Part shown: piece after piece, positions 36,453-41,045 of the stretch
Layout of the letters: each line of letters begins with the position of its first letter
How positions within the stretch are numbered: position 1 is the first letter of the stretch
Assembly (NCBI GenBank): GCA_018335875.1
Contig: JAGXRN010000009.1
Span: forward strand, 1 to 64,000
Direction of reading: 5' to 3'
Length of the DNA: 64,000 nt
Source: Dethiobacter sp.
GTDB taxonomy: Bacteria; Bacillota; Dethiobacteria; Dethiobacterales; Dethiobacteraceae
The notes under the pieces: model-generated
The model's database searches: none
What the model was told of the DNA's origin: nothing
Seen by the model: only the letters and a program-made list of their open reading frames with translations
Made by a program: the position numbers and the translations under genes

Positions 36453-36923
36453 CTAGATGACGGGCAGGACAATTTTCCTGCCCGTTTTCGCTTTTCTAAA
36501 CAACGGGTTAAATAGCACCTCGTGGTTTATCCTCCACAGATTATCCTGGTAGCGCAGAGCTACACGCATACAGTGCTCAGGGAAACGTTCATAGCGCAAA
36601 AGCGATGCAACCTGGTAGTAAAACTCCCTGCCCTCCCTGGACAGGGCGAAGCGTTCACTTTGGAGCAGGTCATTTTTATCCAGGTCTGAAATAATACTCT
36701 GAACCTCAAAACTGTGAACACCTGTTGTGCCTTTGTAGAAATCATACCTGATGCACGAGCGTTCGGACGGTTGGCTGCTGGCTGTGGCAAGAAACAGGAA
36801 GTTGTGCATTGTACGCTGACGGTCAAAATTAAAAGCAGACAAAAGCTTAAGCAACAACACATGATGTAGTGTATAAGTAAAGGAATAAACGCTCATAAAT
36901 CCTACCCTCTCACAATTCTCCAC
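36453..36923 (-). CDS. Hypothetical protein
   Basis: 156-aa ORF with no overlapping better ORF. Confidence 0.5.
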   Translation of the reverse strand: MENCERVGFMSVYSFTYTLHHVLLLKLLSAFNFDRQRTMHNFLFLATASSQPSERSCIRYDFYKGTTGVHSFEVQSIISDLDKNDLLQSERFALSREGREFYYQVASLLRYERFPEHCMRVALRYQDNLWRINHEVLFNPLFRKAKTGRKIVLPVI

Positions 36924-37312: not shown

Positions 37313-37693
37313 ATGGAATACATGACGATTACCTGCGATATAAAAAATTCATGTAAACTGAATAATCGGGAAGAAGTTCAGATAGAACTGATTAATACGC
37401 TTAAAGAAATAAACAGGCAGTATGCACATGTTATAGCTTCCCCTTTTATCATTACCCTGGGGGATGAATGGCAAGGGTTAATGAATGTGGAATGCAATTA
37501 TAATGAGATTATTGCGTTTATTCAGGCCAGAATGCCTGATATTACGTTTTATACAGGGATTGGGATCGGCGAAGTTACGATATCTAACTTTGAGCTAACT
37601 GTAAACCAGCTGGACGGGCCTTCTTTTCATAAAGCCAGGAAAGCAGTAAAACTCGCAAAGCAACTTGATTACTCTCTTGTCCTGATTAAATAA
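37313..37693 (+). CDS. Short SatD-family-like protein (no C-terminal HTH)
   Basis: MEYMTITCDIKNS...TLGDEWQGL...FYTGIGIGEV...DGPSFHKARKAV; start after GTGAGGAGCGATTCT. Confidence 0.7.
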   Translation: MEYMTITCDIKNSCKLNNREEVQIELINTLKEINRQYAHVIASPFIITLGDEWQGLMNVECNYNEIIAFIQARMPDITFYTGIGIGEVTISNFELTVNQLDGPSFHKARKAVKLAKQLDYSLVLIK

Positions 37694-38450
37694 AAATTAA
37701 ATATCTCTGGATAACAAAACCAATAAAAAAGGCCACAAAGATACTAATAAAGCTGCCAATTAAAAAATACTCTACAAACGCATCATCTTTAAACTTGCGG
37801 AATCTTGCTACTGATTTTACACCTAATATTAAGCCGGCCCAGGAAGCATTATTGGTAGCTACAACGGTAATTACCAGGAGCCTTTCCAACAGGCCGATAA
37901 TGTATCCACCATCTTGAGCGCCCGCATCTTCGATTTGGCTTCCTCTCATTTTTTTTATGTATATGCGGATAAAAATACCGGTTCCCCAAATCCCGACTAC
38001 CAGGAGATTGAATACGGCAAGTATACGTATAAAGGCCCCGGTGCCGGCTAGACTTTCTAGCTGACGTATGAAAGGATTCAGCCATGGAGCAGGTGCCAAT
38101 TTTTGCTTTAAAATAATTACTAAAAACATGATTACCGTGATATGCAGTAACTGGTCAAAGAAAAATGAAACAAGGCTATCCTTCCCAAAACGTGCTTTCA
38201 TCTTGTCTATCAAATAATGAGTAGCTGAAATAATAATTAGGAAAAACAACAAAAATGGTGTCCAAACGTAATGGATAATGGCAAAAACCCCCGCGAAAAA
38301 ATGAATAAGTATATGCAGTCGTAAACCCCGTTTTCTTTCGTCCGGTTCATCCGAAAACCTCATGTCGCAAAGTTTTGTTGTTTGAAAAGGGAAGTCAGCC
38401 AAAAGGTGAGCGAGCAATAGTGACAAAACCAGCGCAATTTGCGTCAACAT
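37686..38450 (-). CDS. DUF3307-like multi-TM membrane protein
   Basis: LLLAHLLADFPFQTTKLCDMR and LRLHILIHFFAG; start refined to MLTQIAL. Confidence 0.78.
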   Translation of the reverse strand: MLTQIALVLSLLLAHLLADFPFQTTKLCDMRFSDEPDERKRGLRLHILIHFFAGVFAIIHYVWTPFLLFFLIIISATHYLIDKMKARFGKDSLVSFFFDQLLHITVIMFLVIILKQKLAPAPWLNPFIRQLESLAGTGAFIRILAVFNLLVVGIWGTGIFIRIYIKKMRGSQIEDAGAQDGGYIIGLLERLLVITVVATNNASWAGLILGVKSVARFRKFKDDAFVEYFLIGSFISIFVAFFIGFVIQRYLIFI

Positions 38451-38451
38451 A

Positions 38452-39192
38452 CTAGCTCCTTTCCAGGAGACAGTAGTACGCCAACAGGCTTTCAATCACT
38501 TCTCCGTTTCGCTTAATTGTAAATACTTCAGCACTATTTAATCTTTTACTAATATTGCTGATAGATTTTTTTTCTGTTTGTTCCACTATTTTTCTGTATG
38601 AACCATACTTTAAGTAATCAAGGTATATCTTTTTTTGATTAAATGTCATTTTATTTTTTAAAATTTCATTGTTTTCAATAATAATGTTTACTAATTCATT
38701 GAGTGTAATTGAATTAAGAAAGTTTATATCTCCGGACAGTTCTTCAGAAGTGGCCGCTATTTCATGCTTGAAGGAATTTCGACCTGTTTCATCAACACTA
38801 AAATATACTTTTTTTCTTTTACTGGTAACGCGATCCTTTTTCGCAGATTCAACTGCTTGTCTGGCATGGTGGAAACAAGGTCCATCCATATTACGAAGAT
38901 CATTGTCCAGTGAAGTGGACAATGGGCCAATACCCATCCCTGCATAAAGTTCAATGTCATCATTCCAGAACATACGTTGAAAGGCTTCCACAATGTCGTA
39001 AATTTTAGCTGGCTTATGGGTAATTACCTGCCACTCATCTCCAAGCGTGACGCCCGCCGGTGCAGCAAGCATTTCCTTGTAACGCCCGTTAAATTTAATA
39101 ATATTATTATTGAGGCGGAGTTGGAGCTCGTTTCGCTTATCACTTCGCCTTGAGCCAACAAGATCAAAGATGACTACACCATACAATGACAT
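38452..39192 (-). CDS. SatD-family protein with C-terminal HTH
   Basis: VVIFDLVGSRRSD, VTLGDEWQ, ELYAGMGIGPLST, MDGPCFHHARQAVESAKK; sigma-70 region 4-like C-terminus. Confidence 0.78.
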   Translation of the reverse strand: MSLYGVVIFDLVGSRRSDKRNELQLRLNNNIIKFNGRYKEMLAAPAGVTLGDEWQVITHKPAKIYDIVEAFQRMFWNDDIELYAGMGIGPLSTSLDNDLRNMDGPCFHHARQAVESAKKDRVTSKRKKVYFSVDETGRNSFKHEIAATSEELSGDINFLNSITLNELVNIIIENNEILKNKMTFNQKKIYLDYLKYGSYRKIVEQTEKKSISNISKRLNSAEVFTIKRNGEVIESLLAYYCLLERS

Positions 39193-39388: not shown

Positions 39389-40114
39389 TTAGCGGTAGAC
39401 GTCGAGGGCGTCGAGAATGCCGGTAAGAACTTCGCCGGCAGGCGAGCGGATTACTACACGGGCCATTTCATCATAGGGTGTTGTGCCGCGGTTGATTATT
39501 AGAAGATTCTTGCTGTAACGCGGCAGATATCCTGCCGGGGCTACCTGCAAGCTTGAGCCTACAACCAACATACAATCGCAGCGCATGGCTTCACGCTGGG
39601 CTCTCTGAAAAGCAGGAGGCAGGTCTTCGCCAAAAAGTGTTATATCAGGTTTTATTACGCCGCCGCAGCTTGAACAAGCGGGCTCATCGACGAATTCATG
39701 CAGTTTATTTTTGCTCCCGCAGGAAAGACAGGTACCTGCTGTTATCGACCCGTGCACTTCAAGCACATTTTTTGAACCTGCTTCCTGGTGCAGATTGTCA
39801 ATGTTCTGTGTAATAACCGCCTGCACAAAACCGCGCCTTTCCATCTCAGCAAGCGCCAGATGTCCGTTATTAGGCACTGCTCCGTTGATAACACGCAGCA
39901 GCGGCATTATTCTGCGGTAAAACCGCTGCGGGTCACTGTTAAAGCTTTCGATTGTAAAATCTTCCGGGTCTTCATTCTCCCACAGGCCTGTACCCGGACT
40001 GCGAAAATCCGGTATACCGCTTTCAGTAGAAATGCCTGCTCCAGTGAGCACAACAGCATGACGGGCTGACCCCAGTATGTTGGCAGCTCTGTTGATTAGT
40101 TCTTCAATGGGCAA
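39389..40114 (-). CDS. cobB: Sir2-family NAD-dependent deacylase
   Basis: VLTGAGISTESGIPDFRSPGTGLW, TQNIDNLHQEAGS, CxxC pairs, VVGSSLQVAPAGYLP. Confidence 0.95.
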   Translation of the reverse strand: MPIEELINRAANILGSARHAVVLTGAGISTESGIPDFRSPGTGLWENEDPEDFTIESFNSDPQRFYRRIMPLLRVINGAVPNNGHLALAEMERRGFVQAVITQNIDNLHQEAGSKNVLEVHGSITAGTCLSCGSKNKLHEFVDEPACSSCGGVIKPDITLFGEDLPPAFQRAQREAMRCDCMLVVGSSLQVAPAGYLPRYSKNLLIINRGTTPYDEMARVVIRSPAGEVLTGILDALDVYR

Positions 40115-40163: not shown

Positions 40164-41045
40164 CTAATCATGCGGAGGATTTTTTTTTATCTTCCTGAGA
40201 GCATGTGAAACAGCTGCCTTAACCTCCTCATCATACCGCCTGTTGTCAATTTGTTTTGGCTCACTGCCTAAACTTCCGGAGAACAGATAGCAGGGGGGCA
40301 GCAGATTGAGCGCAGATGTGATTATTTCAAGCCTGCACTGCCGGCAGGAGCAAATCTTATTTTTATCCAGCGTAAAGGTTTCATCAAGGCGTCGGACGAC
40401 AAGTTCTTCCATTAAATTATGCAGCCCGGGCGGTTCACTGCCGGCAGTGTTTGGAGTACTTTCTGATTGTTGGGGATTATTTCGCTGCAGAAAACCCGCA
40501 GCCCAACCCGTTGCAAGCAAAAAGAACTCCTGGTTTTGATCCATTGTTTTACTGTACTCATCAAGCAGCATTTCTTCGAGGCGCTTGGCCGCCCTAATCC
40601 TGCTGCGTACAATACGCAGTGACTGCCTGATAGTAATTTTGTGGCCGCCTTCGATATCCAGTGTGCTTGGCGCCGGTTCCTTCCCGACGCCTGTTATTGA
40701 CCGCAGGCGGAAATAACCATAGGCAGGGTCGCATCCTACCCGGGGGGTGGAAGCTTTAAGCGGGAGAAATATCAGAAAAGGTGAGAAAGCAAGGGGAGTC
40801 AGATTTACCTGGCCAAGCAGGGAGCCATATTTGCGCCTGGCATCCTGTATATTAATAGCAAAAAACCTGGCAAGCTGTTCTACAAATGAGCGCAACCCCC
40901 GTGACTGCCAGCCGGTTGTACCGTCCCGGTAAAAAAGCGTTATTCCCTGTCCTACACCTTCACGGTAGGATGGAATAAAAGCTGCAATACTCAGTACCTC
41001 CTGAAATGACAATTTGTATGCCAAAAAAGAACCCCCTTCATCCAT
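40164..41045 (-). CDS. ComK-like domain protein (tentative)
   Basis: RSFVEQLARFFAINIQDARRKYGS...LIFLPLKASTPRVGCDPAYGYFRLRSI...GGHKITIRQS is reminiscent of ComK. Confidence 0.45.
   Translation of the reverse strand: MDEGGSFLAYKLSFQEVLSIAAFIPSYREGVGQGITLFYRDGTTGWQSRGLRSFVEQLARFFAINIQDARRKYGSLLGQVNLTPLAFSPFLIFLPLKASTPRVGCDPAYGYFRLRSITGVGKEPAPSTLDIEGGHKITIRQSLRIVRSRIRAAKRLEEMLLDEYSKTMDQNQEFFLLATGWAAGFLQRNNPQQSESTPNTAGSEPPGLHNLMEELVVRRLDETFTLDKNKICSCRQCRLEIITSALNLLPPCYLFSGSLGSEPKQIDNRRYDEEVKAAVSHALRKIKKNPPHD

Follow-up and report, generated by a model that had tools for sequence, protein, structure and literature searches.

SatD and the membrane protein SatE form a widespread obligate operon, and the best explanation for our observations is that SatE is probably under the control of a nucleotide signal produced by SatD. 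Three results are the main additions of this analysis: a predicted SatD fold whose active site depends on the partner, a C-terminal module, unnamed in Pfam, as the true partner of SatD, and fusions of DUF3307 to PycTM. SatD and DUF3307 are both classed as families of unknown function, and they occur across Firmicutes and in Fusobacteria, Actinobacteria, Proteobacteria, and haloarchaea; the partner-tied, cyclase-like site and the Pycsar-fused DUF3307 give a concrete and cheap test for both families.

The window, a 64,000-nucleotide stretch of a Dethiobacter sp. contig, contains the island of three genes listed in Table 1. An earlier sequence-only reading described it as two SatD proteins around a DUF3307 membrane protein, and Pfam agreed, assigning PF16264 twice and PF11750 once. 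We named the DUF3307 protein SatE, presuming it to be the counterpart of satE in the Streptococcus mutans sat operon. Since satE begins 1 nt past the stop of satD2, these two genes form an operon; satD1 lies convergently on the opposite strand, and its 3' end overlaps that of satE by 8 bp. Every SatD motif that had been named was found on direct reading in both proteins (CD, GDEWQ, YTGIGIG, and DGPSFHKARKAV in SatD1; FD, GDEWQ, YAGMGIG, and DGPCFHHARQAV in SatD2). The C-terminal HTH noted on one SatD was likewise recovered as a helical/HTH region of SatD2, while SatD1 is the catalytic domain alone, without HTH, and keeps D9, D51-E52, and DGPSFHKAR. The two proteins share only 32% identity, and the duplication is therefore old. 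The same satD1-satE-satD2 triple was present in a second genus of Dethiobacteraceae (genome G002, loci L005/L010).

Table 1. Genes and predicted functional features of the SatD-SatE island, in window positions
Feature	Position	Strand	Description
satD1	37313..37693	+	126 aa; PF16264 SatD, E 1e-20, 74.8 bits (cut-off 29)
satE	37686..38450	-	254 aa multi-pass membrane protein; ATG at 38450; PF11750 DUF3307, E 4.6e-20, 72.4 bits (cut-off 23)
satD2	38452..39192	-	246 aa; PF16264 SatD, E 4.8e-19, 69.3 bits (cut-off 29)
SatD2 domains			Cyclase-like palm domain, aa 1-134; C-terminal helical/HTH region, aa 153-245
SatD2 D10	39163..39165	-	Predicted first metal Asp, on beta-1
SatD2 D52-E53, GDEWQ hairpin	39034..39039	-	Predicted second metal site
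SatD2 R111, DGPxFHxAR helix	38860..38862	-	
DUF3307 domain of SatE	38115..38429	-	PF11750; core motif HLLADFPFQ (H-x3-D-F/Y-x2-Q)
C-terminal SatD-partner module of SatE	37701..37925	-	G..IG.LER ... K...R ... EY.L.G..S; absent from Pfam

The two families were tightly associated in a set of 399 genomes drawn across the phylum, of which 69 had SatD and 68 had DUF3307, with the two together in 55 genomes (odds ratio, 96; P = 1.6e-41). DUF3307 lay within 2 kb of 57 of the 80 SatD matches and was on the same strand and downstream in 55 of these; the two exceptions were the convergent second SatDs of Dethiobacteraceae. For the 80 named loci, a partner was encoded directly downstream of satD in 76 of the 77 that could be evaluated. 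Intact SatD-SatE pairs in Streptococcus were adjacent in 81 of 82 cases, the genes of the pair carried by haloarchaeal plasmids overlap by 4 nt, and a pair was also found in Fusobacterium. The distribution as a whole is patchy.

Loci with SatD and no DUF3307 were considered as partnerless and rejected as such; the membrane partners there carry the C-terminal module only. The partner in Sphingomonas, Agrobacterium, and Natronosalvus is a minimal protein with 2 to 3 transmembrane (TM) segments, and that in Arthrobacter and several Firmicutes is a protein of 230 to 316 aa with a different N-terminal part. None of the partners without DUF3307 had a significant Pfam match. Because this C-terminal module is all that SatE and the other partner types have in common, we read it as the invariant partner of SatD, with DUF3307 as an exchangeable or optional part. 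The sequence-only reading had taken DUF3307 for the partner. The AlphaFold2 model of SatE was all-helical (pLDDT, 90.9), and Foldseek found no solved fold resembling it; only phage DUF3307 models matched, with a TM score of 0.76 on the target for the N-terminal part of SatE.

AlphaFold2 predicted SatD from a 39-sequence alignment (pLDDT, 91.5; pTM, 0.88) as a beta-alpha-beta-beta-alpha-beta-alpha-beta domain followed by helices, and this predicted structure, examined with Foldseek, contains the RRM-like beta-alpha-beta-beta-alpha-beta arrangement of the palm. The likeness to class III nucleotidyl cyclases proposed in the sequence-only reading was borne out at the level of the model. The best PDB matches were the class III guanylate/adenylyl cyclases 3et6, 5d15, and 1ybu, with further matches to 6ifr (Csm1/Cas10) and 3qyy (GGDEF); the best E value was 5e-4 with a probability of ∼1, and the TM scores were modest (0.3 to 0.36 on the query, ∼0.5 on the target). 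Profile-profile comparison with GGDEF was weak but co-linear (P = 0.002): D10 pairs with the metal Asp, GDE with GG(D/E)EF, and the AR..AK helix of SatD with the AD.ALY.AK helix of GGDEF. Comparison with class III was also weak (P = 0.017), with D10 and GDE falling on the class III Asps, so that D10 of SatD2 aligns with the metal Asp of both groups. In control comparisons, an unrelated profile gave a P value of 0.43, and class III against GGDEF, which are known relatives, gave 9e-6. The spacing of the Asps is 42 in SatD versus 44 in class III, and the metal Asps of Pycsar cyclases (D102/D146) are 44 apart as well (PMC11224242).

At the level of sequence families, SatD passed no Pfam cyclase cut-off, and neither PF00211 nor PF00990 matched the window proteins or the 39 members. 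Sub-threshold matches among these members were to GGDEF_2 (4/39) and mCpol (2/39; best mCpol E value, 0.002, short of the cut-off), and the partner SatE matched no known effector in Pfam or PADLOC. By their cut-offs, SatD belongs to none of PF00211, PF00990, and mCpol. A sequence search of solved structures matched SatD to HTH proteins only and SatE to nothing; nearly all SatDs carry an HTH at the C terminus. On the basis of the fold matches, the co-linear profile alignments, and the Asp spacing, SatD is best placed, as modeled, as its own family within the palm-fold nucleotide cyclase/synthase superfamily. It resembles class III adenylyl/guanylyl cyclases in predicted fold and metal Asp positions, but it is shorter and has a DGPxFHxAR helix in contrast to the N-x3-R helix of class III. 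It resembles GGDEF diguanylate cyclases in its predicted palm fold, the Asp on beta-1, the acidic hairpin, and the co-linear alignment; unlike them, it has an obligate membrane partner and an HTH and carries GDEWQ/GDExQ in place of the GG(D/E)EF signature.

DUF3307 also occurs without SatD, and 9 of 14 such loci had a class III or PycC cyclase no farther than 4.5 kb away, a proximity expected by chance at a rate of ∼7e-4 per locus. At L305, L307, L310-L313, and L316, DUF3307 proteins of 110 to 233 aa are encoded beside large class III cyclases, and several of these clusters include a GAF or GAF-HD gene. Judging from their TM-bearing N-terminal parts, most of these cyclases appear to be of CHASE2 type. 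Two further loci are Pycsar operons in which DUF3307 is C-terminal on PycTM. One of these (L314, 1-4138) contains the PycTM-DUF3307 fusion, PycC (PADLOC E value, 1e-29), E2, E1, and JAB; the other (L306, 227-4537) contains PycC, E1-E2, JAB, and the PycTM-DUF3307 fusion. We know of no earlier description of a PycTM-DUF3307 fusion with E1/E2/JAB. The motif H-x3-D-(F/Y)-x2-Q is common to cyclase-linked DUF3307, PycTM-fused DUF3307, and the window SatE, and DUF3307 may be an output or sensor domain of nucleotide-signaling membrane proteins. As SatD is absent from these loci, they lend independent support to reading SatD as a cyclase. The "cyclase plus membrane effector" logic of the sequence-only reading is strengthened both by these arrangements and by the obligate SatD-SatE operon.

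Outside bacterial operons, standalone DUF3307 genes occur in phages (PHROG 2470; Ralstonia phage RsoM2USA ORF187), where a role as a decoy or in counter-signaling is conceivable; in the literature searched, a single paper, on a phage, mentioned DUF3307.

The conserved Asps that had been proposed as a check on the cyclase comparison proved to be strictly conserved in partnered SatDs. All 200 partnered SatDs that were resolved had Asp at D10; D52 was kept in 203/203 SatDs, E53 in 202/203, and R111 in 195/203 overall and in 84/84 partnered Streptococcus SatDs. D10, D52, and E53 were all present in 212 of 217 SatDs with a C-terminal module nearby, and of the remaining five, four miss only the first aligned column and one has E53S. 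In contrast, among partnerless SatDs (counted where they were away from contig ends), the site was often lost. In six of the seven SatE-less Streptococcus SatDs, D10 was replaced by N or K or E53 was replaced by K, and R111 had often become Q as well. Eight orphan second SatDs in one Firmicutes family (f26; L229-L236) had lost the site and had no SatE partner, and all eight genomes also have a partnered SatD-SatE pair; one more partnerless SatD (L240) had lost E53 and R111. The site was intact in three partnerless SatDs (L071, L020/L238, and L135). The raw association between site loss and partner absence (Fisher P = 9e-20) is inflated by the relatedness of the SatDs, and we therefore counted independent losses, of which there were ∼4 (two in Streptococcus, one in f26, and one in L240), all partnerless. 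Thus, the catalytic site of SatD depends on the partner.

SatE-less Streptococcus SatDs with D10N had a dN/dS of ∼0.10, the same as the paired clades. We considered whether SatE-less SatDs might simply be pseudogenes and rejected this on the basis of the purifying selection, which indicates that SatD has some role beyond SatE. The orphan SatDs of f26 are also conserved and are possibly repurposed pseudoenzymes.

We propose that the SatD proteins are nucleotide cyclases/synthases of the palm fold, with relatives in class III cyclases and GGDEF/Cas10 domains, and that they would dimerize, coordinate two metal ions with D10 and the GDE hairpin, and convert nucleoside triphosphates into a small nucleotide signal. 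SatE would be its dedicated membrane receptor/effector, with the C-terminal membrane module as the SatD-specific part and DUF3307 or another membrane domain as the exchangeable output part. The HTH may let most SatDs act on transcription too. satD1 could serve as a second, HTH-less catalytic copy, and its product could form SatD1/SatD2 heterodimers. Weighing against the proposal are the failure of SatD to pass any Pfam cyclase cut-off, the weak profile-profile and modest Foldseek scores, the small number (∼4) of independent site losses, the three partnerless SatDs with an intact site, and the purifying selection on SatE-less SatDs. Should activity be found, this would be a new nucleotide-signaling circuit in bacterial stress biology, with a membrane module new to domain libraries.

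The order in which the two genes are lost was examined in 197 genomes of a single genus, Streptococcus, assigned through its YlxM. Both satD and satE were intact in 82 genomes, and neither gene was present in 96. SatD was intact with SatE broken (6 genomes) or absent (7 genomes) in 13, and no genome among the 197 had an intact SatE without an intact SatD. Two apparent cases of SatE without SatD (G441 and G319) were rejected; a divergent SatD lies directly upstream. In a phylogeny built from 91 satD genes, there were ∼8 separate SatE losses with SatD kept, 7 of them on strongly supported branches, versus 0 in the reverse direction (sign test, 0.008 to 0.016). Several of the SatE breaks are single frameshifts. 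The pair has two fixed places on the chromosome, one next to topA/trmFO and the other next to ylxM-ffh. In one genome (G637; L133 and L192), 17 kb separates SatD from SatE, and each occupies one of the two sites that hold the pair in other species; this fits action in trans and suggests that complementary halves were kept after reciprocal loss from two copies.

These patterns bear on the direction in which the signal would act. In a variant of the preferred explanation that we regard as possible and hold tentatively, a constant SatD nucleotide would keep SatE inactive, and loss or sequestration of the signal would free SatE to damage the membrane, as for OptS/OptE of Panoptes. The one-way loss of SatE favors this polarity, as do the two surviving halves in G637. 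Further, satD is the sole accessory gene of Streptococcus pyogenes with high essentiality and is present in 71% of genomes (PMC11323703), though nearly half of the Streptococcus genomes have neither gene, and in Panoptes, OptE without OptS inhibits growth (PMC12657218). Against it, the S. pyogenes datum concerns satD and not the presence of satE, and a single frameshift accounts for several of the SatE breaks. The loss order and the S. pyogenes essentiality together would be the trace expected of a restrained, costly SatE, but this reading is weakened by two facts: SatE-less SatDs are under purifying selection, so that a second role of SatD could by itself account for its retention, and in S. 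mutans, nonpolar mutants in each of the sat genes, including satD, are reportedly viable. SatD and SatE resemble Panoptes (OptS mCpol and OptE) in pairing a minimal, predicted palm-domain synthase with an adjoining putative membrane effector, and the loss pattern could fit a restrained effector; unlike in Panoptes, SatD matches mCpol only weakly and SatE is not S-2TM-beta. We are more doubtful of the fullest form of such a guard circuit, which would be widespread and hitherto overlooked and in which a constitutive palm-fold synthase would silence a membrane effector, satD would be essential where satE is intact, nucleotide-draining stress or phage factors would release SatE, and DUF3307 would be an output domain shared by SatD, class III, and Pycsar systems.

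The retention of partnerless SatDs without the Asp also indicates that a non-catalytic role exists, and it raises the rather improbable alternative that SatD works as a transcription factor that senses NTPs without catalysis, its palm binding nucleotide and its HTH controlling satE. The near-universal HTH is consistent with this, and GGDEF_2, found in CdaR-type regulators, was the commonest weak Pfam palm match. However, D10, D52, and E53 are kept in essentially every partnered SatD in both bacteria and archaea and are lost only without a partner, and SatD1 keeps the site without an HTH.

The S. mutans sat operon is known only to be induced by acid and to have a part, linked to Ffh, in acid tolerance, and the Streptococcus SatD-SatE pair often follows ylxM-ffh. 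No biochemical role for SatD or SatE of this operon was proposed in the literature that we searched. A signaling role would provide these long-known streptococcal "secretion and acid tolerance" genes with a function open to testing, and it could explain why satD, alone among the accessory genes of S. pyogenes, scored as essential. Anti-phage defence is possible for SatD-SatE; a circuit responding to envelope or acid stress is no less likely.

A Pycsar-type anti-phage system, in which infection would switch SatD on and its product would open SatE as a membrane-disrupting effector, is in our view unlikely. The PycTM-DUF3307 fusions and the patchy distribution are indirectly in its favor, as is an Agrobacterium pAt locus (L253) in which satD and a minimal partner have TA- or defence-like genes as neighbors (DUF4365, HEPN/MNT antitoxin, and HipA). 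SatD also resembles PycC in its predicted class III-like fold, its two metal Asps ∼44 apart, and the adjoining membrane protein (PycTM/PycTIR in Pycsar). However, no PADLOC model, including those for PycC and PycTM/PycTIR, matched the three window proteins, and SatD was missed by both the PycC and Guanylate_cyc models; it differs further in having an HTH and in pairing through the unnamed C-terminal module. A general defence-island setting was not supported: the neighbors of SatD were mostly housekeeping genes, with few strong PADLOC matches among 130 (a count taken with no matched background), and the Streptococcus pair keeps to its two fixed sites. Moreover, a search of phages and viral contigs turned up no SatD, and the literature searched had nothing that linked SatD to anti-phage activity and nothing on satE.

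It is very improbable that SatD is a Thg1/Cas10-group nucleotidyltransferase or polymerase acting on RNA or protein and not a cyclase, since, although the top fold matches include the Cas10 palm and this palm group contains non-cyclizing polymerases (PMC2904730), cyclases are the best fold matches, the domain is minimal with the HTH as its sole nucleic-acid-binding addition, and the partners of DUF3307 elsewhere are true cyclases.

Near the island, a 156-aa ORF at 36453-36923 fell into no family, its only match being a weak wHTH-PRTase-associated one (E value, 0.14). On the other side, a CobB-type sirtuin (39389-40114) adjoins a protein with a C-terminal ComFB domain (40164-41045; PF10719, E value, 4.6e-16).
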